From Gammaproteobacteria bacterium (GTDB taxonomy: Bacteria; Pseudomonadota; Gammaproteobacteria; Eutrophobiales; Eutrophobiaceae), in NCBI GenBank assembly GCA_016193395.1, contig JACPSH010000014.1, forward strand, positions 1-64,000: a stretch of 64,000 nt of DNA, given 5' to 3'. The stretch's first letter is position 1. The number at the start of each line of letters is the position of its first letter. The position numbers and the translations under genes are program-made. Positions 3,880 through 46,511 of this stretch are shown here, piece by piece. The notes beneath the pieces are model-generated. The model did not search any database. It saw only the letters and a list, made by a program, of their open reading frames with translations, and was not told the DNA's origin.

Positions 3880-5118
3880 TCAGCCTGACGCTCCGCCCTG
3901 GCCAGACTTGACGCGCTGGCCGTCGGAAAGGTCCGCAGGCGGGTTGACGACGACCTGCTGTCCGGCCTTGATCCCGGATTCGACGAGCCGCTGTCCGCCG
4001 AAGTCCGCGCCGGCACGGACGTCGCGGCGGAGCGCGTAGCCCGCCGAGACAATAAACACCACGTCACGTCCGTCGCGTTCGACTACCGCGCCGGCCGGGA
4101 CGCGCACGCCGCCCGGCGATGGCACGGGCGCGGCCTGCGTCTCATCAAGATAAGTGACGTGCACGCCCATGTCGGGCACGATGCGCGGATCCTTTGCCTT
4201 GATCGCGATGCGCACCCTGACGGTGGCCTTGCTGCGGTCGGCCGCCGGGATGATGGCGATGACCTCGGCCGGGATCTTCCACTCGGGATAGGCGTCGAGC
4301 ACCGCCTCGACCGGCTGGCCCGGCGTCACGCGGTTGATGAAGGCTTCGTTGACATCCACTTCGATCTCGAGGGAATCCATGTCGACGATCGTGCCGATGC
4401 CGGTGCGCGTGTAGCCGCCTCCCGCGGAGATCGGCGAGACCATCTCCCCGGGCTGCGCCGCCTTGGCGATGACCACGCCCGCGAACGGCGCCCGGATCAC
4501 GGTATCGGCTTCGTCGACCTCCGCGACCTTGAGCTGCGCCTCGGCCACGCCGATCTGCTCGCGCTGCGCCTTTAGCTGCGCCTCGAGCGAAGTGACCAGC
4601 GTCTCCGCGTTGTCCAGCAACTGCTGCGCCGTCAGGCCGCGCTCCTTCAGATTCTGCTGGCGCGCGAGGTCGCGCTCTGCCTGCTCGATCTGGGCCTGGA
4701 GTTCGCCGAGCCGCGCCCGCGCCGCGTCGATCTGTGCGCGCGCCACGCCGAGTTGAGCCTTGGCGGAAGTATCGTCGAGCCGCGCCAGTACCTGCCCCTC
4801 CTCCACTCGATCTCCCTCCTCGAACAGCACCTCGATCAGCTTTCCCGTGACCTTGGACGCCACGGTCGCCTGGCGCCGCGCCGTGACGTAGCCGGTCGCT
4901 TCCAGAACGGCGCGGCTGGCGCCGGGAGCGGGGAGCTCGGCAACGGCGATCTCCACCTCCACCGCGTGCCCGCCCAGAAACATCACCGCCGCAACGCCGG
5001 CAATCACCAGCAGCACGGACGCAGCGAACAGCAGTGGCCACACCGTTCGCGCGGCGTCGCTGCCAGCGCGCTGGGCGGGGTCGATACGGAGTTCCGAGAG
5101 AAGCTGTTTGTCGTTCAT
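3880..5118 (-). CDS. HlyD/MacA-family periplasmic adaptor subunit
   Basis: A 412-residue membrane-fusion protein, first gene of the efflux operon. One transmembrane helix (about residues 27-49) anchors it in the inner membrane. A split biotinyl-lipoyl domain flanks a coiled-coil hairpin at about 110-200, rich in Q, E, A and R, and is followed by beta-barrel and membrane-proximal domains. The start MNDKQLLSEL at 5118 is chosen because the open frame upstream of it is the antisense of the divergent oxygenase gene. With the ATPase and two permeases it makes a MacAB-like export system. No outer-membrane TolC gene is in the window. Confidence 0.9.
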   Translation of the reverse strand: MNDKQLLSELRIDPAQRAGSDAARTVWPLLFAASVLLVIAGVAAVMFLGGHAVEVEIAVAELPAPGASRAVLEATGYVTARRQATVASKVTGKLIEVLFEEGDRVEEGQVLARLDDTSAKAQLGVARAQIDAARARLGELQAQIEQAERDLARQQNLKERGLTAQQLLDNAETLVTSLEAQLKAQREQIGVAEAQLKVAEVDEADTVIRAPFAGVVIAKAAQPGEMVSPISAGGGYTRTGIGTIVDMDSLEIEVDVNEAFINRVTPGQPVEAVLDAYPEWKIPAEVIAIIPAADRSKATVRVRIAIKAKDPRIVPDMGVHVTYLDETQAAPVPSPGGVRVPAGAVVERDGRDVVFIVSAGYALRRDVRAGADFGGQRLVESGIKAGQQVVVNPPADLSDGQRVKSGQGGASG

Positions 5119-5269
5119 GAGTGTTCCGCACGCAGCATACCAATGCCACGAACACCCGGCCAATCCCGTCCACCGGCCCCGCGGACCCGGCTCCGGCAGC
5201 GTTCTTGTCTGGAGCGCGCCGTGATCCGTTGTCATAATGTGGGCGTTCCGGATCCGCGAAACGCCCGAC

Positions 5270-6385
5270 ATGACCCTTCCCCCTCTGACCGCCGGCGAGC
5301 CCGCGCCATGGTTTGTCGGCAGGACCGCGTTGAACCCGAACTTCAATTTTGAATCGGCTGCCGGGAGAAAAGTCGTTCTGGCGTTCCTCGGTTCGGCCGC
5401 GAATCCGGCCAGCCGTGACTTTCTGGCGGGCCTTTCCTCGATTCGGGATCGCTTCGACGATGTCACCACCTGCTTCTTCGGTGTATCCATCGATCCGGGC
5501 GACGAGCGGCTCGGACTGATCGCCGACGATATTCCCGGGATCCGCTTTTTCATGGACGACAACCGGGAAATCAGCCGCGCCTACCGCGCACTCGGCGAGC
5601 AGGGCGTCTATCGCCTGCTGGTCTACATCCTGGACGCCCAGCTGCGCGTCGTTGCCGCCCTGCCGATCGGTGCCGATGCCGGGGAGTGCATCGCGCACCT
5701 GCGACACGAACTCGATGCCCTGCCCGCAACGGGGGAACCCTGGCCCGCGACGGCGCAGGCGCCGGTGCTTGTCGTTCCGCGCGTGTTCGAACCGGCCCTG
5801 TGCCGCACGCTGGTAGAGACTTACGAGCAGGGCGGAGGCGAGGACTCAGGTTTCATGCGCGACGTCAAAGGCAAGACCACCCTGATCATCGATTACGGCC
5901 ACAAGCGCCGGCGCGACTGCACGATCAAGGACGAAAAGCTGCGCAACGCGTGCATGGTGCGCATACACGACCGGCTTGCGCCGGAGATCCACAAGGCATA
6001 CCAATTCCGGGCCACGCGCATCGAGCGGCATATCGTAGCCTGTTATGACGCCGGGGAAGGCGGCCACTTCCGCGCGCACCGCGACAATACGACCCTCGGC
6101 ACCGCCCACCGCCGCTTCGCCGTTTCCCTGTTCCTCAACTCCGGCGAATATGACGGCGGTTTCCTGCGGTTCCCCGAGTACGGACCTGCGCTGTTCAGCG
6201 CGCCGACCGGCGGTGCCGTGGTGTTCTCCTGCTCCCTGCAGCATGAAGCCACGCCCGTGACCCGCGGCCGGCGCTACATGTATCTGCCGTTTCTCTATGA
6301 CGAGGAAGCAAAGCGGCTGCGCGAGGAGAATAAGCAGTATCTCGATGAACGGCTCACGGGCGCGGGAGACACTACAGAAAAGTAG
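5270..6385 (+). CDS. Peroxiredoxin-like domain fused to a prolyl-4-hydroxylase-type 2OG-Fe(II) oxygenase
   Basis: A 371-residue two-domain protein. Residues 1-150 follow the AhpC/TSA thioredoxin-like fold (VVLAFLGSAANPASRDF, then FFGVSIDPGDER), but no cysteine is present where the peroxidatic Cys should be, so peroxidase activity is unlikely. Residues 165-345 form a P4Hc-type oxygenase domain with the iron ligands H270-x-D272 and H325 and a 2-oxoglutarate-binding arginine at about 334. Such enzymes hydroxylate proteins or small molecules. The ATG at 5270 starts the conserved region; an upstream in-frame ATG at 5237 is less likely. It is divergent from the efflux operon. Substrate unknown. Confidence 0.85.
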   Translation: MTLPPLTAGEPAPWFVGRTALNPNFNFESAAGRKVVLAFLGSAANPASRDFLAGLSSIRDRFDDVTTCFFGVSIDPGDERLGLIADDIPGIRFFMDDNREISRAYRALGEQGVYRLLVYILDAQLRVVAALPIGADAGECIAHLRHELDALPATGEPWPATAQAPVLVVPRVFEPALCRTLVETYEQGGGEDSGFMRDVKGKTTLIIDYGHKRRRDCTIKDEKLRNACMVRIHDRLAPEIHKAYQFRATRIERHIVACYDAGEGGHFRAHRDNTTLGTAHRRFAVSLFLNSGEYDGGFLRFPEYGPALFSAPTGGAVVFSCSLQHEATPVTRGRRYMYLPFLYDEEAKRLREENKQYLDERLTGAGDTTEK

Positions 6386-6465
6386 GTGGCAAATGGCAGG
6401 TGAAATATAGGGGCTAATGTTTTCACCTACATGCTATCTGCTATCTGCTACCTGCTACCTGCTTC
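6383..6465. repeat. Degenerate heptanucleotide tract
   Basis: The right part (6431-6465) is five consecutive 7-mers: ATGCTAT, CTGCTAT, CTGCTAC, CTGCTAC, CTGCTTC. The left part holds GGCAAAT, GGCAGGT, GAAATAT and AGGGG, which is related to the complementary form. The lactate permease stop codon (6455-6457) lies inside the tract. The same units recur at 8111-8201 on the other side of the permease gene, and a weaker version is at 21099-21136. Confidence 0.7.
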
Positions 6466-8104
6466 CGCCCACCACCATCCCCGTGAACGGCCAAACCGTC
6501 GCCTGCAGGTGCACGAGCAGGCCGACCAGCACGGCGAGCGCCAGGCTGTGGAAGAAGACGTAACGCAGGATCGCGCCCTCGTGCCCGTACCACTGCGTCG
6601 CCGTGCTCGCGACCACGATGCTCTGTGCATCGATCATCTTGCCCATCACGCCGCCCGAGCTGTTCGCGGCGCACATGAGCACCGGGCTCACGCCGGTCTG
6701 CTCGGCGGTGATCTTCTGAAGGCTGCCAAACAGGACATTGGAAGCGGTATCGGAGCCGGTCAGCGCGACGCCGAGCCAGCCGAGCAGCGTGCCGAAAAAC
6801 GGGTAGAACGCCCCCGTCCGCGCCAGAGCCAGCCCGAGCGTCGCATCGAGTCCCGAATAGCGCGTGAGGAAACCGAGCGCCAGCATGGCCGCGATGGTCA
6901 GCAGCGAGTACCGGACGCGCAGCAGGGTCGCGAAGTATTCAGCCAGGATTTCGCGTGGACGGAATCGCAGCGCGAGCGCGGCGATGAGCGAGGCCGCCAG
7001 GATCCCCGTGCCGGTTGCCGATAACCAGTTAAGTCGATAGACCGCTTCCTCCGCATATATGGGCTGACCGGGACGGGGCTTTGCTGCGACCGGATAGCTG
7101 CGCGCCACTTCGCCGTGCAAGCCGTTCACTTCGATCGCCGGCGCGGACATCTGATCGAGCGAATGCTTGACCGCGGGCAGGCCCCACAGAAACACGAGGC
7201 AACTCAGGATGATCCACGGCAGCCAGGCGCGCCGCAGGGTGCGGCGGTCCGCGGCATACGATGGATCCGCCGACTCCGTGTCCTTCCTGGTTGCCGACGG
7301 CTCCCAGAAGCGCAGCAGTATCAGGACCGTGCCCATGGAACAGACCGAGGCGACGATATCCACCAGCCAGGGACCGTGGAAATTGGACACCAGGAACTGC
7401 GGCAGGGCGAACCCGACGCCGGCGGCCAGCGCCGCCGGCCACACCGCAAGCGCGCCGCGCAATCCGGCATAGGCCCACACCAGCCAGAACGGCACGATCA
7501 GGGAGAAGAACGGCAACTGCCGGCCGGCCATGGCCGAGAGCGCGTGCAGTTCGAGCCCGGTCACGCCGGCGAGCGCGATCAGCGGCGTGCCGAGCGCGCC
7601 GAAGGCGACCGGCGCGGTGTTCGCAATCAGCGAAAGCGCGCAGGCATGCAGCGGCGTGAATCCGAGGCCGGCGAGGATTGCCGCCGAGATTGCGACCGGT
7701 GTTCCGAATCCCGCGGCGCCTTCGAAGAACGCGCCGAAACAGAAGGCGATCAGGATGAGCTGGATGTGAGGATCGGGCGTGACGCGCGCGAGGCTTGCCT
7801 GCAGGACCTGGAACAGCCCGCGCCGGACCGTAAGCGCGTAGAGAAAGATGAGGTTGAGCACGATCCAGCCGATGGGAAGCAGGCCGTACGCGGCGCCATA
7901 GGCGACCGCAGCGCCGGCGGCGCGTGCCGGCATGTGGTAGACCCCAATCGCCACGAAAAGCGCCATGGCCAGTGCGGCCAGCGCCGCGAAATGGATGCGC
8001 ACACGCAGAAAGGCGATGGAACCGAGCAGGATGAAAATGGGCAGTGCCGCGACGAGCGTCGAGAGCAGCGCGTTACCGAGCGGATCGTAGTGCTGGAACC
8101 ACAT
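6455..8104 (-). CDS. lldP: L-lactate permease (LldP/LctP family)
   Basis: A 549-residue polytopic inner-membrane protein with the usual family length and a dozen or more hydrophobic segments. Family blocks such as GAFFEGAAGFGTPVAI near residue 125-140 and GSDTASNVLFGSLQK near 435-450 identify the lactate permease family, which imports L-lactate or glycolate with protons. No lactate dehydrogenase gene is adjacent, so its catabolic partner lies elsewhere. Both ends of the gene are flanked by heptanucleotide tracts. The start at 8104 gives the expected N terminus ahead of the first helix. Confidence 0.92.
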   Translation of the reverse strand: MWFQHYDPLGNALLSTLVAALPIFILLGSIAFLRVRIHFAALAALAMALFVAIGVYHMPARAAGAAVAYGAAYGLLPIGWIVLNLIFLYALTVRRGLFQVLQASLARVTPDPHIQLILIAFCFGAFFEGAAGFGTPVAISAAILAGLGFTPLHACALSLIANTAPVAFGALGTPLIALAGVTGLELHALSAMAGRQLPFFSLIVPFWLVWAYAGLRGALAVWPAALAAGVGFALPQFLVSNFHGPWLVDIVASVCSMGTVLILLRFWEPSATRKDTESADPSYAADRRTLRRAWLPWIILSCLVFLWGLPAVKHSLDQMSAPAIEVNGLHGEVARSYPVAAKPRPGQPIYAEEAVYRLNWLSATGTGILAASLIAALALRFRPREILAEYFATLLRVRYSLLTIAAMLALGFLTRYSGLDATLGLALARTGAFYPFFGTLLGWLGVALTGSDTASNVLFGSLQKITAEQTGVSPVLMCAANSSGGVMGKMIDAQSIVVASTATQWYGHEGAILRYVFFHSLALAVLVGLLVHLQATVWPFTGMVVGGSR

Positions 8105-38188: not shown

Positions 38189-39430
38189 ATGAAAAAGCAG
38201 AAATACAAAAAGGTGGTGCTCGCCTACTCCGGCGGACTGGATACCTCGGTCATCCTGAAATGGCTGGTAGAGAACTACGGCTGCGAGGTCGTGACCTTTA
38301 CCGCCGATATCGGCCAGGGCGAGGAGCTGGAGCCCGCGCGCGCCAAGGCCAGGAAGCTCGGCGTGAGGGAGATCCATATAGAGGACCTGGTCGAGGAATT
38401 CGTCAGCGACTTCGTCTTCCCCATGTTCCGGGCCAACACGCTCTATGAAGGCGAGTACCTGCTCGGGACGTCCATCGCCCGCCCGTTGATCGCCAAGCAC
38501 CTGGTGGAGATTGCGCGCAGAACTGGGGCGGATGCCGTGGCGCACGGCGCGACCGGCAAGGGCAACGACCAGGTACGCTTCGAACTCGGCGCCTACGCGC
38601 TGAACCCGGAGATCAAGGTCATCGCGCCGTGGCGCGAGTGGGACCTGAGCTCGCGCGCAGCGCTGCTGGCCTACGCCCGCAAACACGGGATCCCCATCGA
38701 GCAGAAACGCGGCCGCCAGGCCCCGTATTCGATGGACGCCAACCTGCTGCACATCTCCTATGAGGGCGGGATCCTGGAAGATCCCTGGTACGCGCCCGAG
38801 GAGTCGATGTGGCGACGCACGGTGTCGCCCGAGAAGGCGCCGAACCGCCCCGAGATCATCGAGATCGGCTTTGCGCGCGGCGACGCCGTGACGTTGAACG
38901 GCAGGACTCTCACGCCAGGCGGGATGCTGAAAGCCCTGAACGTGCTCGGCGGTAAACACGGCATCGGCCGCACCGACATCGTGGAGAACCGTTACGTCGG
39001 CATGAAATCGCGCGGCTGTTACGAAACGCCGGGCGGCACGATCCTGCTGAAGGCGCACCGCGCCATGGAATCCATCACGCTGGACCGCGAAGTCGCCCAT
39101 CTCAAGGACGACCTGATGCCGCGGTACGCCAGTCTGATCTACAACGGCTACTGGTGGAGCCCGGAACGGCAGGCCCTGCAGACGCTGATCGACGCGACGC
39201 AGAAGCGGGTGAACGGCGTCGTGCGGCTGAAACTCTTCAAGGGCAACGCGCTGGTCACGGGCCGCAAGTCGCCGACCGACAGCCTGTTCGACGCGAGCAT
39301 CGTCACTTTCGAGGATGATGCCGGCGCCTACAACCAGAAGGACGCGGAGGGCTTCATCCGGCTGAACGCGCTCAGGCTGAAGATCCTCGGCAGGAAGAAA
39401 ATGGTGAAGCGAAAAAGGGAACAGACTTAA
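38189..39430 (+). CDS. argG: Argininosuccinate synthase
   Basis: 413 residues. Joins citrulline and aspartate with ATP in arginine synthesis. The ATP-pyrophosphatase P-loop AYSGGLDTS is near residue 12, and [15 protein letters not shown] and [13 protein letters not shown] are family blocks. It stands alone; argH is not in the window. Confidence 0.97.
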
Positions 39431-39601: not shown

Positions 39602-40846
39602 TTAAGTCTGTCCCTGGTTCGTTTTGTGCGTGAGTTTCAGCCGGCGCAGCAGCCAGGGCAGGCTGCTCGACTGCACGAACAAACCGAACAGCACCGTGCC
39701 GTAGACGATCGACTGGACCGTGTACCACGCCTCCAGCTCCACCGGCAGCGACAGGGCCAACGCCATGGCGAAGGTGCCGGGCGTGCCTGTCCAGGCAATG
39801 GCCGCCTGGTAGTTCAGCGGGACCCGCTGCGATTCGGTCATGCGTGCCAGCGGCCCCAGCAGGCCGAACACGATGAACGTCCGCGCAAGCAAGAGCGCCA
39901 CGATGCCGATGAGCATCGCCAGCCACTCATCGCGGAACATCGACAGCGTGATGGTGACGCCGGCGATGAGAAAGATCAGTCCGGAAGTGACGTGCGCGGC
40001 GAATTCCCACAGCGATTCCACGAAGTCGCCTGATAGCCCGCGCCGGCGGCGGAATTCCGCGAGCGCGAGGCCAGTCGCGAGGACCGCCATGACGCCGGAG
40101 AAATGAAACTGGAACTGGGCGACCAGGAATGCGCCGTATACGCAGGCCAGGGTGGCGACCGCGCCAATGTGGACGTGCCCGCTGTAACGGAGGACGAACA
40201 GCAGTATTCCGCCAAAGACAATCCCGACCGCGATACCGCCGGCGACAATCGTGAGGAAGGATACGGATGCCCCGACGAAGCCTTCGAAGGGCGCATCCGG
40301 CAGGGTCATCTGCAAAGCGACCATGAATATCACGACCGCGGTCGCATCATTGAACAGCGCTTCGCTTTCGAGCAGCACCTGCAGCCGTTCCGGCGCGCCG
40401 AGCCTGCGCAGCAGCCCGATCACGGCGCCCGGATCCGCGGCGCTCAGCATGGCCGCGGTCAACAGGGCGATGACGATGGGGAACCCCTCGGGATGACCCA
40501 CGCCCAGGTAGAGCAGGGCACCGATGATGAATACCGCGGCCAGCATCAGCGGCAGCGCCAGGAGGAAAATCGGGACGATGTCGTTCCAGATCCGGCGCGC
40601 GTCCAGGCGCAGCGCCGCGTGAAACGTCAGCGCCGGCAGAAAGATGTTGCTGATGAGGAAATTGAAGTTGTCCCACCGGATGCCGGTGTCGAGCATGAAT
40701 TCGCGGGTGACCAACTCGGAGGCTGCGAAGCCCAGCGTGACCAGCATGACCCCGCGCGGGACATGCAGCCGTTCGGCCGGCGGCTCCAGAACGTAGCCGG
40801 CGAGCAGCAGCAGGAGAAAGAAGAGGATGGCGCCGATGCTCAACAT
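39602..40846 (-). CDS. Cation:proton antiporter (CPA1/NhaP type)
   Basis: 414 residues with about 12 hydrophobic segments, CPA1 type. The paired-acid motif region SAADPGAVIGLLRRLG and NDATAVVIFMVALQ fits the Na+/H+ exchanger core. It exchanges Na+ or K+ for protons at the inner membrane. It starts 55 nt after the stop of the FMN glutamate-synthase-like gene and reads the same way, so it may be the last gene of the hvf operon. Confidence 0.88.
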   Translation of the reverse strand: MLSIGAILFFLLLLLAGYVLEPPAERLHVPRGVMLVTLGFAASELVTREFMLDTGIRWDNFNFLISNIFLPALTFHAALRLDARRIWNDIVPIFLLALPLMLAAVFIIGALLYLGVGHPEGFPIVIALLTAAMLSAADPGAVIGLLRRLGAPERLQVLLESEALFNDATAVVIFMVALQMTLPDAPFEGFVGASVSFLTIVAGGIAVGIVFGGILLFVLRYSGHVHIGAVATLACVYGAFLVAQFQFHFSGVMAVLATGLALAEFRRRRGLSGDFVESLWEFAAHVTSGLIFLIAGVTITLSMFRDEWLAMLIGIVALLLARTFIVFGLLGPLARMTESQRVPLNYQAAIAWTGTPGTFAMALALSLPVELEAWYTVQSIVYGTVLFGLFVQSSSLPWLLRRLKLTHKTNQGQT

Positions 40847-40901
40847 ATTTCAGTCACGGCGGATTTGTCCCACTCCCGCAACGGAAGAGGGGAATCGTTC
40901 C

Positions 40902-42410
40902 TCAGGCGGCGAATCGGGATGTGACTTCCGGGAACAGCTTGTCGAGCGGGATGGACAGCCCGTGATCCGCGACGATGCGCGCATGGTGGCGCCGCAACTG
41001 CCGCGGCTCCTGCACGCCGCAGGAGTGCGCGATGACGCCGACTTCCTTGGTCATGTTCTTCTGGTAGTGCATTACGCGCACCGCCTTTTCCTGCGGCACC
41101 AGGCCGCGCTGCAGGTGCGGATTGTGCGTGGTGACGCCCGTGGGGCAGGTATTCTTGTTGCACTGGAGCGCCTGGATGCAGCCCAGCGCGAACATGAAAC
41201 CGCGCGCCGAGTTGACGAAGTCGGCGCCGACGCACAATGCCCAGGCGACGTCGGTCGGCGTCACGAGTTTGCCGGAGGCAACGACCTTGATCCGGTCACG
41301 CAGTCCGTATTCAACCAGCTTGTCCACGATCAGCGGCAGGCTCTCGCGGAGCGGCAGTCCGACGCCGTCGATCAGAGGCATCGGCGCGGCTCCGCTGCCG
41401 CCTTCGGCGCTGTCCACGGTCATGAAATCCGGCGCGCACTGGACGCCGCGGACGCGGATCTCGGCGAACAATTCGTCCAGCCACTGGTGGGCGCCGATGC
41501 AGGCCTTGAGGCCGGTCGGCTTGCCCGAGATTCCGCGGACGCGTTCGATCATGTCGAGCAGCTCGGCATTCGATTTCACTTCCAGGTGCCGGTTCGGACT
41601 GATGGAGTCCTCTCCCGCCTGGATGCCGCGGATCTTCGCAATCTCCTCCGTCACTTTTGCGGCCGGGAGGATGCCGCCCTTGCCCGGCTTTGCGCCCTGG
41701 CTGAGCTTGATTTCGATCATCCTGACCTGCTCGTGGCTTGACAATTCCAGCAGCTTCTCTTCGCTCAGGTTGCCGTCGAGATCGCGCACGCCGTACTTGG
41801 CCGTTCCCATCTGGAACACGATGTCCGCCCCGCCCTCGAGGTGATAGGGGGACAGACCGCCTTCGCCCGTGTTCATCCAGCAGCCGGCCATGCGCGCGCC
41901 GTTTGACAGCGCCAGCACCGCGGGCCTCGAAATCGCGCCGAAGCTCATGCCGGAAATATTGAAGAAGGAGGGGGTCGTGTACGGCTTCCTGCAACGGGGC
42001 CCGATGGTGACGGGCATCGGGTCCACCGCGTCCTCGGAGAGCGTCGGAAACGGCGTGTTGACAAACATGATCGTGCCGGACCGGCGCAGATCGCGCGTGG
42101 AACCGAAGGCCACGGTGTTGTCCAGGTTCTTGGCGGCGCGGTAACACCAGGATCGCTGCGCGCGATTGAACGGCAGTTCCTCGCGATCCATCGCGAAGAA
42201 GTACTGGCGGAAGAATTCTCCCAGGTGTTCGAACAGGTACCGGAAGCGCCCGATGACGGGATAGTTGCGGCGCACCGCATGCTCGGTCTGCGTGATGTCG
42301 ACCACGTACATGACGACCACCGCGAGCGCCCCGACGCCGATGACGAACACGAACAGCGCCGCCATGAACTGCAGCGCATACGTCACAAACGTCTGCCATT
42401 GGTCCGGCAT
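40902..42410 (-). CDS. FMN-binding glutamate-synthase-family protein, membrane-anchored
   Basis: 502 residues. An N-terminal helix (about 8-35) anchors a large domain homologous to the FMN and Fe-S domain of glutamate synthase (SFGAISRPAVLALSNGARMA, GEGGLSPYHLEGGADIVFQ-type blocks, TVDSAEGGSGAAP). The cysteine cluster CIQALQCNKNTCPTG near the C terminus matches the 3Fe-4S ligands of GltB. It lacks the glutaminase domain, so it does not make glutamate by itself; its natural reaction is unknown. It begins 18 nt after hvfC, so it is probably co-transcribed with hvfABC. Confidence 0.88.
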   Translation of the reverse strand: MPDQWQTFVTYALQFMAALFVFVIGVGALAVVVMYVVDITQTEHAVRRNYPVIGRFRYLFEHLGEFFRQYFFAMDREELPFNRAQRSWCYRAAKNLDNTVAFGSTRDLRRSGTIMFVNTPFPTLSEDAVDPMPVTIGPRCRKPYTTPSFFNISGMSFGAISRPAVLALSNGARMAGCWMNTGEGGLSPYHLEGGADIVFQMGTAKYGVRDLDGNLSEEKLLELSSHEQVRMIEIKLSQGAKPGKGGILPAAKVTEEIAKIRGIQAGEDSISPNRHLEVKSNAELLDMIERVRGISGKPTGLKACIGAHQWLDELFAEIRVRGVQCAPDFMTVDSAEGGSGAAPMPLIDGVGLPLRESLPLIVDKLVEYGLRDRIKVVASGKLVTPTDVAWALCVGADFVNSARGFMFALGCIQALQCNKNTCPTGVTTHNPHLQRGLVPQEKAVRVMHYQKNMTKEVGVIAHSCGVQEPRQLRRHHARIVADHGLSIPLDKLFPEVTSRFAA

Positions 42411-42428
42411 GGCTCGATTTCCCGTCGA

Positions 42429-43187
42429 TCAGCGGGCGCGCACGCCGGGAACGACGTTCTTTCCGCGCAACGCCTCGAGGATTTCGAGCCCGCCCTGGAT
42501 CACGACCGCGGGGTCGGGATGCTGAAGCTCCACGACAATCTGCTGCATGAGTTCCCGTCCCGTGCGGCCGCTCTCCTGCTGCATCAGCTCGACCAGCCGC
42601 GCGGAGACCGGATTCAATTCCAGGAAGCCGATCTGATCCTCGAGGTCGCGGTAGATGACCAGATAGGTAGGCTGGTCCGGCGCTGTCTCCGGCAGGAAGT
42701 CCGGTTTGATCCTGTGCACCGGGAAGCGGTAGGCGAACGGCCAGGCCAGCGGGCTCAACACCGGGATGCCGCCCAGCAGGTCGCCGTCCGCGTCGATGCC
42801 CGTGAGATCGATTTCGCGCGGGTCGATGGAGAGCGCGAGTTCCACCCATTCGTAATGGGCGAGTTCCAGCAGGAACGGAAAGTCGCCGGGCTGGATCCCG
42901 CGTTCGTGCTCCAGGTAGTGCAGGAATTCCTGCGGCATTTTCGGAAACAGCGGCGTGTGCGCGCGGTGATTCCGGAAATAATCGCGGACCAGCGAGTGCC
43001 AGCGCTCGTCGGAGCAGATCCTGCGCAGCACCGGGAAACAGCCGGCGAGGAAACTTTGCACGTTCTTGTACAGGAGATCGCGGTAGATCTCCATGCGCCG
43101 GTCTTCGATGTCCCGCGGCGCCGGCGCGCCATCCGGATCGCGGATGTTGCCGGTGAATTCGAATTGCCGCTTCTGGAAGGGCTTCAA
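42429..43187 (-). CDS. hvfC: HvfC/DUF2063-family RiPP maturation protein
   Basis: 252 residues. The N-terminal segment (about 25-110) with YKNVQSFLAGCFPVLRRI and WHSLVRDYFRNHRAHTPLF is the DUF2063 domain. The rest is the less conserved HvfC C-terminal domain. It is thought to present the precursor peptide to the MNIO enzyme (HvfB). It begins 1 nt after the hvfB stop, so the two are translationally coupled. DUF2063 proteins were once called putative DNA-binding proteins; that old label is unlikely here. Confidence 0.9.
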   Translation of the reverse strand: MKPFQKRQFEFTGNIRDPDGAPAPRDIEDRRMEIYRDLLYKNVQSFLAGCFPVLRRICSDERWHSLVRDYFRNHRAHTPLFPKMPQEFLHYLEHERGIQPGDFPFLLELAHYEWVELALSIDPREIDLTGIDADGDLLGGIPVLSPLAWPFAYRFPVHRIKPDFLPETAPDQPTYLVIYRDLEDQIGFLELNPVSARLVELMQQESGRTGRELMQQIVVELQHPDPAVVIQGGLEILEALRGKNVVPGVRAR

Positions 43188-43188
43188 G

Positions 43189-44079
43189 TCAGCCGTGACC
43201 GGCGAGGCGCTCGCTGACCGGGCGTGCGTATTTCGCCTGGAGCCGCCGGATCACGTCCACTTCCTCGAGCATTCGCGCGACCGGCGGAATGTTGAAATCG
43301 CGTTCGAGCAGGGTCGGAAACACGCCGAAGTGGCGGTAGGCTGTGTCCAGCAGGTTCCAGACCGGGTCGATCACGTTCGAGCCGTGCGTGTCGATGCGCA
43401 GGTCTGCCGCCTCGACGTAATGCCCGGCGATGTGCGCGTAGGCAATGCGCTCCGCGGGCAGGGCTTTCAGGAACCGCTCCGCATCGTAGCCGTGGTTGAT
43501 GGAATTGACGTAGATGTTGTTGATGTCCAGCAGCAGGTCGCAATCCGCGCGCTCCAGAATCGCGTTGATGAAATCGATCTCGTCCATCTCGCGCCCCGGC
43601 GCCGCGTAGTACGACACGTTTTCGATGGCGAGCCGGCGGCCGGTAATGTCCTGGGTGCGGAGGATGCGCTCGGCGACGTAATCGACGGCATCCTCCGTGA
43701 ACGGGATCGGCATCAGGTCATAGAGGTGGCCGTCATCCGCGCAATAGCTCAGGTGTTCGCTGTAGCAGCGGATGGAGAATGCATCGAGGAACCGGCGCAC
43801 GCGCCGCAGGAAGGCCTCATCGAGCGGCGCCGGTCCGCCGATATTGAGCGACAGTCCGTGGCAGACGAACGGCACCTGCTCCGCCAGCGCGCGGAACCGG
43901 CGCCCGAATTTCCCGCCGATGTCAATCCAGTTCTCGGGCGCCACTTCCATGAAATCGACGGAAGGGGGAACACGATCTGCGAGCGAGCCGATGAAGGCTC
44001 GCCGCAGACCCAAACCTGCACCTTGTACAGGGTAATTTTTCAACGTCTGTTCGAAAGGGCCAGGTGCCGCCCTGGCCAC
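43189..44079 (-). CDS. hvfB: HvfB: MNIO-family (DUF692) RiPP maturase
   Basis: About 296 residues, TIM-barrel, multinuclear non-heme iron oxidative enzyme. Family blocks with metal ligands are present: MEVAPENWIDIGG, VCHGLSLNIGG, YSEHLSYC, AIENVSYYA, LLLDINNIYVNSINH, and the final AHIAGH and IDTHGS histidines. MNIO enzymes oxidise cysteine residues of a precursor peptide (to oxazolone/thioamide or thiooxazole-type groups), which then bind copper. GTG 44079 is chosen, 10 nt after the hvfA stop; the upstream frame is the antisense-like shadow of the hvfA repeats. No upstream Met lies within the barrel. Confidence 0.93.
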   Translation of the reverse strand: MARAAPGPFEQTLKNYPVQGAGLGLRRAFIGSLADRVPPSVDFMEVAPENWIDIGGKFGRRFRALAEQVPFVCHGLSLNIGGPAPLDEAFLRRVRRFLDAFSIRCYSEHLSYCADDGHLYDLMPIPFTEDAVDYVAERILRTQDITGRRLAIENVSYYAAPGREMDEIDFINAILERADCDLLLDINNIYVNSINHGYDAERFLKALPAERIAYAHIAGHYVEAADLRIDTHGSNVIDPVWNLLDTAYRHFGVFPTLLERDFNIPPVARMLEEVDVIRRLQAKYARPVSERLAGHG

Positions 44080-44089
44080 GGCTTCAGTT

Positions 44090-44437
44090 TTACTTGTCCA
44101 TGCCTTCGCCGCACTTGCCTTCGCCACACTTGCCTTCGTGCGCCTTGCGCTTCTCGCCGCACTTGCCTTCGCCGCACTTCCCTTCCGCACTCGTATCCTT
44201 GTCCTCGCCGCATTTGCCTTCGCCTTCGTCCTTAGCCTTGCCTTCCTCCTTGCCTTCCTCCATGCCTTCGCCGCACTTGCCCTCGGCGTCATGGCCGGCG
44301 ACCATGTAGCCGCTGGCGGACAGGTCGTTCATATTGAACGGGTTCGCCGCCGCGCCGACGACGGGGCTGAGCAGCGACACCGCAAAGGTTGCGCCGATGG
44401 CGGCAGCGATCGGTTTCAGGTTCGTCTTCTTCGACAT
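44090..44437 (-). CDS. hvfA: HvfA-type RiPP precursor, cysteine-rich (copper-binding)
   Basis: 115 residues. A signal peptide (about 1-31: basic start, IAAAIGATFAVSLLS, ending AAA) is followed by a short stretch (NPFNMNDLSASGYMVAGHDA) and a repeat-rich Gly/Glu/Lys core. Six cysteines, each in GKCG, lie in two isolated and two double (EGKCGEGKCGE) units. EGKCG is the known modification site of MNIO enzymes. The Lys/Glu-rich stretch MEEGKEEGKAKDEGE between the first two cysteines is a length variation. ATG 44437 follows a strong GGAGGA site. The core is exported and probably binds copper. Confidence 0.92.
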   Translation of the reverse strand: MSKKTNLKPIAAAIGATFAVSLLSPVVGAAANPFNMNDLSASGYMVAGHDAEGKCGEGMEEGKEEGKAKDEGEGKCGEDKDTSAEGKCGEGKCGEKRKAHEGKCGEGKCGEGMDK

Positions 44438-44473
44438 CAGGAGTTCCTCCAGAGTTGGGAATGAATCGTGAAT

Positions 44474-44489
44474 CGACCCTCGCGGGTCG
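44474..44489 (-). promoter_or_regulatory. GNRA-type hairpin in the hvfA leader
   Basis: On the coding strand CGACCC-GCGA-GGGTCG is a 6-bp stem closed by a GCGA (GNRA) tetraloop, about 37 nt before the hvfA start. It may stabilise the leader or regulate translation. The promoter is probably further upstream in 44490-44570, but I cannot place it. Confidence 0.45.
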
Positions 44490-44747
44490 TGATTAAAGTG
44501 GTTTGTTTGCAATCCACCTGCGCTCGGCAGGCTTCAAAATCTTGATCTGCTACCCGGCGCAGGATCAGGTTAATCGACCCGCGCTCCGCGGGGAAGTTCT
44601 GGCCGCGCCGAAGAGACGTGGCCGCGCAGCTCGGGCCGATGACCGGGACATTTCGAGCTGCGCATTGTAAGGCTTAACTATCAATGAGTTGCAGCAACTA
44701 TGCCGGGGCGCGGCCGCGGTCCACGCAACGCGGACCGACCGGGTAAG

Positions 44748-45023
44748 TAACAGGCCGACACGTTGAAGTAAAACTCCGTTTTGCTTCAGCGTGCGGCGCC
44801 CGAGGGCAGATTTGCTGCTCCTGCGAAATCTGCACTTCCGCCATCCCTGGCGGTCGGATGGGACGCAGCATTTATCAAGCACGCCAGTGCTTGATAAATG
44901 GAGCGAGGCCGAAGCTCTGCTTTGCTTGACGCGAGATGCAAAAGTCCGGCAGAAAATTGCTCCTACATTTTCTGCATTCCCGCCGTCCATGGCGGTCTGA
45001 CGGACTTTTGCATCAACTTGTTA
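44748..45023. repeat. Hairpin-chain element, copy 3 (longest)
   Basis: Left end TAACAGG (44748-44754), right end CTTGTTA (45017-45023), whose TTA is the reverse-strand TAA stop of lysS. Hairpins in order: GTTGAAG..CTTCAGCG type, GCAGATTT/AAATCTGC, CCGCCATCCCTGGCGG, a CAAGCACG-type stem, GGCAGAAAAT/ATTTTCTGC, CCGCCGTCCATGGCGG, and an outer ATGCAAAAGTCC/GGACTTTTGCAT stem. The block TCCTGCGAAATCTGCA is shared with copy 1. Left of it (44440-44747) the intergenic region shows no gene, only the hvfA leader. Short frames here are not genes. Confidence 0.85.
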
Positions 45024-46511
45024 ATACCGCGGACGCATGTGCGGGAACAGGATCACGTCGCGAATCGACGGTGAATCCGTCAACAGCATCACGAGCCGAT
45101 CGACGCCGATGCCTTCGCCGGCCGTGGGCGGCAGTCCATATTCGAGCGCGGTGATGTAATCCTGATCGAAGTGCATGGCCTCCTCGCTTCCGCGTTCCTT
45201 CTCGGCGAGCTGGTGGCGGAAACGCTCAGCCTGGTCGTCCGGGTCATTCAGTTCCGAGAAGCCGTTCGCGATCTCCCGGCTGGCGATGAACAACTCGAAG
45301 CGATCGGCGATCGTGGGGTCGTCGTCGTTCCTGCGGGCGAGCGGCGAAACCTCGGTCGGAAAAGCCGTGATAAAAGTAGGCGCGACGAGTCTCGCTTCGA
45401 CCGTCTTCTCGAAAATCTCGAGCAGCGCCTTGCCGAGACCCGCCGCGGCGTCCAATGGCACGCCCAGGCCCTCGGCCACGTCGCGCGCGTTAGCGAGCGA
45501 GCGCAGATCGGCTGCCTTGATTTCCGGGTTGTAGCGCAGGATCGACTCCACCATGGTCATGCGCTCGAACGCGCCGTCAAAATCGATGCGTTCGCCCTGG
45601 TATTGAATCGCGGTCGACCCGGTGACATTACGCACCAGGGATTGCATCATGTCCTCGCTGAGATCGATCATGTCGCGGTAATCCGCATAGGCCTGGTAGA
45701 ACTCCAGCATCGTGAATTCCGGGTTGTGCCGGGTAGAAAGCCCCTCGTTGCGGAAATTGCGGTTGATCTCGAACACCCTCTCGAGCCCGCCGACGACCAG
45801 CCGTTTAAGATACAGTTCCGGCGCGACGCGCAAATACAGTTCCATGTCGAGGGTATTGTGGTGCGTGACAAACGGACGCGCGTTCGCCCCGCCGGGGATG
45901 ACCTGCATCATGGGCGTCTCCACTTCGATGAAGCCGCGGTCCCTCATGTACGCGCGCAGGAAATCCGTGACGCGTGCGCGGACCTCGAAGGTGCGGCGCG
46001 TCTCTTCGTTCATGAGCAGATCGAGGTAGCGCTGGCGGTAGCGGGTCTCGTGGTCCGTCAGGCCATGGAATTTTTCCGGCAACGGCCGCAGCGACTTGGC
46101 GAGCAGTCGGACCTCCCGCGCCTGTACCGACAGCTCGCCGGTCTTCGTCTTGAACAGCGTGCCCGTGGCTCCGGCGATGTCGCCGATGTCCCACTTGCGG
46201 AATGACTCGTACATCCCGTCCGGCAGGGTGTCCTGGCGGCAGTAGAACTGGATGCGGCCCGACATATCCTGCAGGTGCGCGAACGCCGCCTTGCCCATCA
46301 CCCGGCGGCTCATCATCCGGCCCACGATGCTCACCGGCACCGGGCTCTTCTCCAGTGCCTTTGCCTCCGCGGCGCCGTACTTTGCGTGCAGATCCGCGGC
46401 CAGTGCGTCGCGCCGGAAATCGTTCGGATAGGCAATCCCGGCCGCGCGCAGCTCGTCGAGGTGCCGGCGGCGGTTTGCAATCAGCTCGTCTTCGGTGGTG
46501 TGTTCGGACAT
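45021..46511 (-). CDS. lysS: Lysyl-tRNA synthetase, class II
   Basis: 496 residues. Attaches lysine to tRNA-Lys. An N-terminal OB-fold (about 55-140) is followed by the class II catalytic core: motif 2 [14 protein letters not shown] and motif 3 [12 protein letters not shown] are clear. The length is normal. Just downstream of prfB on the same strand, as in many Gammaproteobacteria. The TAA stop coincides with the end of a dispersed repeat. Confidence 0.97.

Follow-up and report, generated by a model that had tools for sequence, protein, structure and literature searches.

What do a flavin mononucleotide (FMN)-dependent, glutamate-synthase-like protein and a cation/proton antiporter do in a gene cluster devoted to a copper-binding peptide? 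The question is raised by a 64,000-nucleotide stretch of contig JACPSH010000014.1 from a Gammaproteobacteria bacterium (hereafter the window, meaning the whole stretch analysed), in which hvfA, hvfB, hvfC, an FMN glutamate-synthase-like gene (FMN-GltS; its product is called here the FMN protein) and an antiporter gene follow each other on the minus strand, with successive gaps of 10, 1, 18 and 55 nucleotides. Our coordinates bear out this gene set and these gaps as given in the first-pass annotation of the window, and the span 40902-44437 that it assigned to the locus runs from hvfA to the FMN gene; the antiporter, which its text counted in, lies outside that span. The annotation had also placed the last two genes outside the usual hvf set, in agreement with the main texts of the published overviews, where the core consists of a ribosomally synthesized and post-translationally modified peptide (RiPP), an MNIO enzyme, a DUF2063 protein and a DoxX protein (PMC12452194), with no FMN or antiporter gene. 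Like the annotation, we infer that this extension could act as a redox or ion partner.

Operons extended by FMN-HvfX(-antiporter) are a new form of the hvf operon and one that recurs across genomes. We searched 370 gammaproteobacterial genomes, at least 90% complete, and considered genes as linked when they lay within 7 kb of each other. The FMN protein is present in 125 genomes, HvfB in 121 and both in 51. Co-occurrence of the FMN protein in relatives, on which the first-pass annotation had made its proposal depend, is thus observed, as the two genes are linked in 24 of these 51 genomes (0.35 expected), distributed among 15 families and always on the same strand. Because simple co-presence in a genome shows no more than a weak association (odds ratio 1.7, p = 0.02), the signal is one of physical linkage. 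With A, B, C and X standing for hvfA, hvfB, hvfC and hvfX, and NHE for the antiporter, at least seven gene orders are found: A-B-C-FMN-X-NHE, A-B-C-X-FMN(-NHE), A-B-FMN-X-C, A-FMN-X-B-C, FMN-X-B-C, FMN-X-NHE-B-C, and a dehydrogenase variant, A-B-C-[acetolactate synthase-]aldehyde dehydrogenase-FMN-X-NHE; B-C-X-FMN is among the orders of the linked loci. Two of these arrangements (A-B-FMN-X-C and A-FMN-X-B-C) have the FMN gene inserted inside the hvf set. Mapping linkage onto the tree of FMN proteins requires 21 changes of state, at least 7 of them forced by strong branches, so that linkage was gained or lost repeatedly. As the linked proteins are scattered over the tree, we rejected the idea of a single clade of specialised hvf-linked FMN proteins. 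Among the places listed for FMN-like proteins of about 45% identity, 0 of 14 is near HvfB.

Within the linked loci, the FMN gene directly adjoins hvfX (DoxX-like, NF050144) in all 31 cases where both are present. HvfX accompanies 31 of the 37 hvf-linked FMN entries vs 6 of the 74 unlinked ones, and several of these are cut by a contig end or do have a precursor gene. In loci L085 and L178, a candidate HvfA-like precursor stands with FMN and HvfX genes, and no MNIO gene was found in the fetched stretch. The antiporter is present in 19 of 38 loci in which hvf and FMN genes are linked. Neither the antiporter nor the thiamine pyrophosphate (TPP) enzyme and aldehyde dehydrogenase (ALDH) genes occur in any of 20 control HvfB loci lacking a linked FMN gene (0/20 for each), which are often ordered rnf-nth-hvfABC-hvfX. 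It is thus the FMN gene that the antiporter accompanies, and not hvf as such. Separately, we noticed that in many families (L163, L165, L188, L190, L193 and others) the hvf cluster has an rnf (electron transport) and nth operon immediately upstream.

The window itself departs from this pattern at one point: hvfX, the usual fourth hvf member, is missing from the locus and gives no match anywhere in the window. A hidden or decayed copy between the FMN gene and the antiporter was dismissed on the same ground, the available space being 55 nucleotides only. One HvfX is encoded elsewhere in the genome, on contig C44 (NF050144, 209 bits). As this copy does not group with the operon copies of the same family in the HvfX tree, a simple transposition out of the operon is unsupported, and we did not retain relocation as its origin.

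Judged from its sequence, the hvfABC core adds a new member to an established RiPP class, that of the EGKCG precursors (oxazolin/fontiphorin, "captophorins"), as the first-pass annotation had proposed in calling the locus HvfABC-type. HvfB matches the MNIO Pfam family (E=1.6e-103) and the HvfB model NF003818 (436 bits vs a cut-off of 360), and its closest solved structure is the MNIO protein 3BWW; HvfC reaches 305 bits with NF050145 (cut-off 142) and matches structure 3DEE. The HvfA-family domain NF050137 is found at 57 bits (cut-off 19.5), while the narrower HvfA equivalog NF050188 stays under its cut-off (52 vs 95). HvfA has six cysteines in E/DGKCG-type motifs (EGKCG/GKCG repeats), as annotated, and its predicted secretion rests on a basic start followed by a hydrophobic stretch, conserved in relatives. 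The Lys/Glu-rich insert that had been singled out between the first and second cysteines is real and quite ordinary: relatives carry 4-15 cysteines per precursor and frequently show Cys-free stretches of a similar kind, so that we do not retain it as a special feature. Some precursors differ more visibly. HvfA homologues of loci L147 and L150, which also hold FMN-GltS and antiporter genes, have EF-hand-like segments between two EGKCG pairs, and L168 carries three tandem hvfA genes upstream of a single hvfBC set, then FMN, hvfX and antiporter genes.

EGKCG precursors with MNIO enzymes and DUF2063 partners form the oxazolin/fontiphorin group, now called captophorins, in which the EGKCG-class cysteines are converted to 5-thiooxazoles and the products are copper-binding peptides (PMC13097082); by analogy, the HvfA cysteines of the present locus would be modified likewise and the peptide would bind copper. 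The hvfABCX (oxazolin) locus of nontypeable Haemophilus influenzae has the same precursor type, MNIO enzyme HvfB and partner HvfC; in contrast, the present locus lacks hvfX and carries the FMN-GltS and antiporter genes after hvfC. The fon biosynthetic gene cluster (fontiphorin) of Fontimonas thermophila, of the captophorin class, likewise combines EGKCG repeats, an MNIO enzyme and PME1 (DUF2063), and the co-occurring genes given for fon and the captophorins in the main text are DoxX, DUF2282 and regulators, with no glutamate-synthase-like gene (PMC13097082). The MNIO landscape study noted rare additional redox genes (oxidored_molybd, ferric reductase) in Buf_EGKCG/oxazolin clusters; FMN-GltS and the antiporter are unmentioned in its main text (PMC12452194). 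Bufferins (Buf1/Buf2, BufABC) share the MNIO enzyme and the DUF2063 partner, but their precursor family is different. More generally, the main texts of PMC13097082, PMC12452194 and PMC13419390 describe no glutamate-synthase-like or antiporter gene, although their supplements may list one, and a literature search for glutamate-synthase-like FMN proteins in clusters of this kind returned nothing relevant. Most linked loci with named records stem from metagenome-assembled genomes, and the extension apparently does not reach beyond lineages known chiefly through such assemblies, which may explain why survey main texts lack it.

The sole Pfam domain found in the FMN protein is Glu_synthase (PF01645, E=6e-85), which spans residues 140-466. 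The model of the protein (29 sequences, mean pLDDT 79) combines a membrane-length helix at residues 2-40 with a barrel, for which glutamate synthases are the best structural matches (1ea0, Z 33.3, root-mean-square deviation 2.8 over 376 residues). It shares with the FMN domain of the GltB alpha subunit the barrel fold, the FMN region and a C-x5-C-x4-C cluster motif, whose cysteines (C411, C417 and C422) align with those of GltB and are invariant in 30 sequences. Unlike GltB, to which it is about 25% identical, it is 502 residues long, possesses an N-terminal membrane helix and shows no glutaminase domain in a Pfam scan. The catalytic FMN/[3Fe-4S] barrel probably faces the cytoplasm, because basic residues follow the helix. 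The antiporter belongs to the CPA1 type (Na_H_Exchanger, PF00999, E=1e-49). As a separate observation, the FMN-GltS family also recurs in another setting (L104, L108, L121, L122, L131 and others), where hvf genes are absent and the genes found with it encode the TPP enzyme PRK08322 (acetolactate-synthase type) and an aldehyde dehydrogenase.

We tentatively read the whole as an EGKCG copper-buffering RiPP operon joined to an FMN-GltS/HvfX membrane redox unit, a reading that we place somewhat short of an even chance. The genes would be transcribed as one operon. In the cytoplasm, HvfB, activated by HvfC, would turn the HvfA cysteines into 5-thiooxazoles; the modified peptide would then be Sec-exported and bind Cu(I) outside, if it behaves as its characterised homologues do. 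The FMN protein, anchored by one helix and with its barrel probably in the cytoplasm, would form a membrane redox unit with HvfX, which in the present genome would be the copy encoded elsewhere. Most likely, this unit would donate electrons that hold the HvfBC iron centre in its active Fe(II)/Fe(III) form, keep the HvfA thiols reduced, or do both, when the cell is exposed to copper or oxidative stress. The antiporter would belong to this stress response as well, with a secondary role in pH/ion homeostasis. HvfBC in vitro needs a reductant (dithiothreitol or ascorbate) to obtain the active mixed-valent iron centre and reduced HvfA thiols (PMC13419390); the FMN protein, a membrane flavin/iron-sulfur protein whose gene is locked beside hvfX, is a natural candidate for the donor. 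For the role of HvfX, a name given to the uncharacterised DoxX-like protein of H. influenzae (PMC13419390), and for the in-cell reductant of the MNIO iron centre, an FMN protein encoded beside HvfX, sometimes between hvfB and hvfC, provides a concrete candidate. The stronger proposal, namely that FMN-GltS and HvfX make up a membrane complex dedicated to delivering electrons to thiooxazole-forming MNIO enzymes in the copper-peptide operons of many uncultured Gammaproteobacteria, seems to us unlikely; if true, this complex would be the first physiological reductant system for that enzyme family.

Several observations weigh against the redox reading. The characterised hvf, fon and ngo systems form thiooxazoles in Escherichia coli without an FMN gene (PMC13097082), so that the FMN protein is not essential to the chemistry and would be at most an aid, and many genomes with HvfB have no linked FMN gene. 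By itself, electron donation also leaves the antiporter unexplained. In addition, the FMN family adjoins acetolactate-synthase and aldehyde-dehydrogenase genes in places without hvf, which hints at a metabolic role. The main rival explanation, which we consider rather unlikely, starts from a report, cited in PMC6250119, that copper at acid pH inhibits the glutamate synthase (GOGAT) of E. coli (Djoko et al. 2017): a glutamate-synthase-like enzyme would be carried along with the copper-buffering peptide as a metabolic bypass sustaining glutamate supply, and the antiporter, together with the acetolactate synthase and aldehyde dehydrogenase of some loci, would belong to the same copper/acid-stress response. 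Such a bypass is consistent with a fold nearest to glutamate synthases, and it accommodates the antiporter and the metabolic TPP/PRK08322 and ALDH genes better than the redox reading does. However, the FMN protein has no glutaminase domain and carries the same cluster cysteines as GOGAT, the genome encodes a full-length GltB of its own, and neither the strict adjacency to HvfX nor the insertions between hvfB and hvfC are explained.

Two observations on linkage, the first of which also counts against the redox reading, favour the view that hvf and FMN cassettes are both mobile, or often share insertion sites (between lysS and argG, downstream of rnf-nth), and resemble one operon by position only, with no functional link between them. 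In the window's family, the contents of the lysS-argG interval vary, with hvf but no FMN gene, FMN but no hvf, or both, so that this family alone is no proof of an hvf-FMN link. In a further 397 genomes drawn from the phylum, most of them complete, both genes are present in 10 and linked in just 2 of these (that of the window, G000, and G113), HvfB-type matches being confined to the same class. Mere shared neighbourhood is nevertheless improbable in our view, since linkage is found in 15 families with both genes always on one strand, in varied contexts, and with FMN-HvfX pairs lying between hvf genes. We regard as quite unlikely, too, that the targets of FMN-GltS and HvfX are the exported peptide or copper, and not HvfBC, for example in a quinone-linked module for Cu(II) reduction or for handling membrane thiol/sulfur damage. 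HvfX is a membrane protein, always beside the FMN gene in linked loci with both, and a DoxX homologue elsewhere protects against oxidative or sulphur stress (PMC12452194), which suits such a function; the basic residues after the helix, by contrast, favour a cytoplasmic catalytic domain.

Features of the hvf locus and of its borders in the window
Feature	Position	Strand	Basis
lysS, upstream border of the cassette slot	45021..46511	-	gene maps
Interspersed intergenic repeat copy, upstream of hvfA	44740..45020	.	54 matching places in the genome
hvfA, RiPP precursor, 115 aa, predicted Sec-type leader, six Cys (coding part 44437-44093, stop codon 44092-44090)	44090..44437	-	NF050137 above cut-off; leader conserved in relatives
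hvfB, MNIO (DUF692) peptide maturase, GTG start at 44079	43189..44079	-	Pfam, NCBIfam, structure match
hvfC, DUF2063/NGO1945-type partner protein (RiPP recognition element, RRE), TTG start at 43187	42429..43187	-	Pfam, NCBIfam, structure match
FMN/[3Fe-4S] glutamate-synthase-like protein, 502 aa, one N-terminal membrane helix, no glutaminase domain	40902..42410	-	Pfam, alignment, model
55-nt gap, site of hvfX (DoxX-like) in most linked same-family relatives; no hvfX here	40847..40901	-	gene maps
CPA1-type Na+(K+)/H+ antiporter	39602..40846	-	PF00999; accompanies the FMN gene in 19 of 38 linked loci
argG, convergent, bordering the cassette slot downstream	38189..39430	+	gene maps

The first-pass annotation had pointed to separate promoters ahead of the FMN gene as an argument against a single unit; candidate promoter and terminator sites within the operon are no better than those of shuffled sequences. 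A regulatory RNA upstream of hvfA was also considered and rejected, as positions 44000-45100 give no Rfam match up to E=1. The palindromes in that region are part of the interspersed genomic repeat; several genome copies of this palindromic repeat are ~90% identical over ~180-210 bases. The lysS-FMN-argG synteny of the window's family is also present in a metagenome-assembled genome record titled Klebsiella pneumoniae (L066), with the FMN protein 79% identical; the organism label looks wrong.

Finally, the genome carries a second MNIO locus, a Buf2-like bufferin cluster on contig C11 (L185, G000:C11:4000-12392), and its two MNIO proteins are only about 42% identical. At about 4000-6941, this locus holds a BufB-type MNIO gene, a gene for a 258-residue protein that is likely BufC and a six-Cys Buf2-like precursor, with a convergent pair of likely extracytoplasmic function (ECF) sigma and anti-sigma factors; in the landscape study, sigma factors were reported with Buf1, not Buf2, clusters (PMC12452194).

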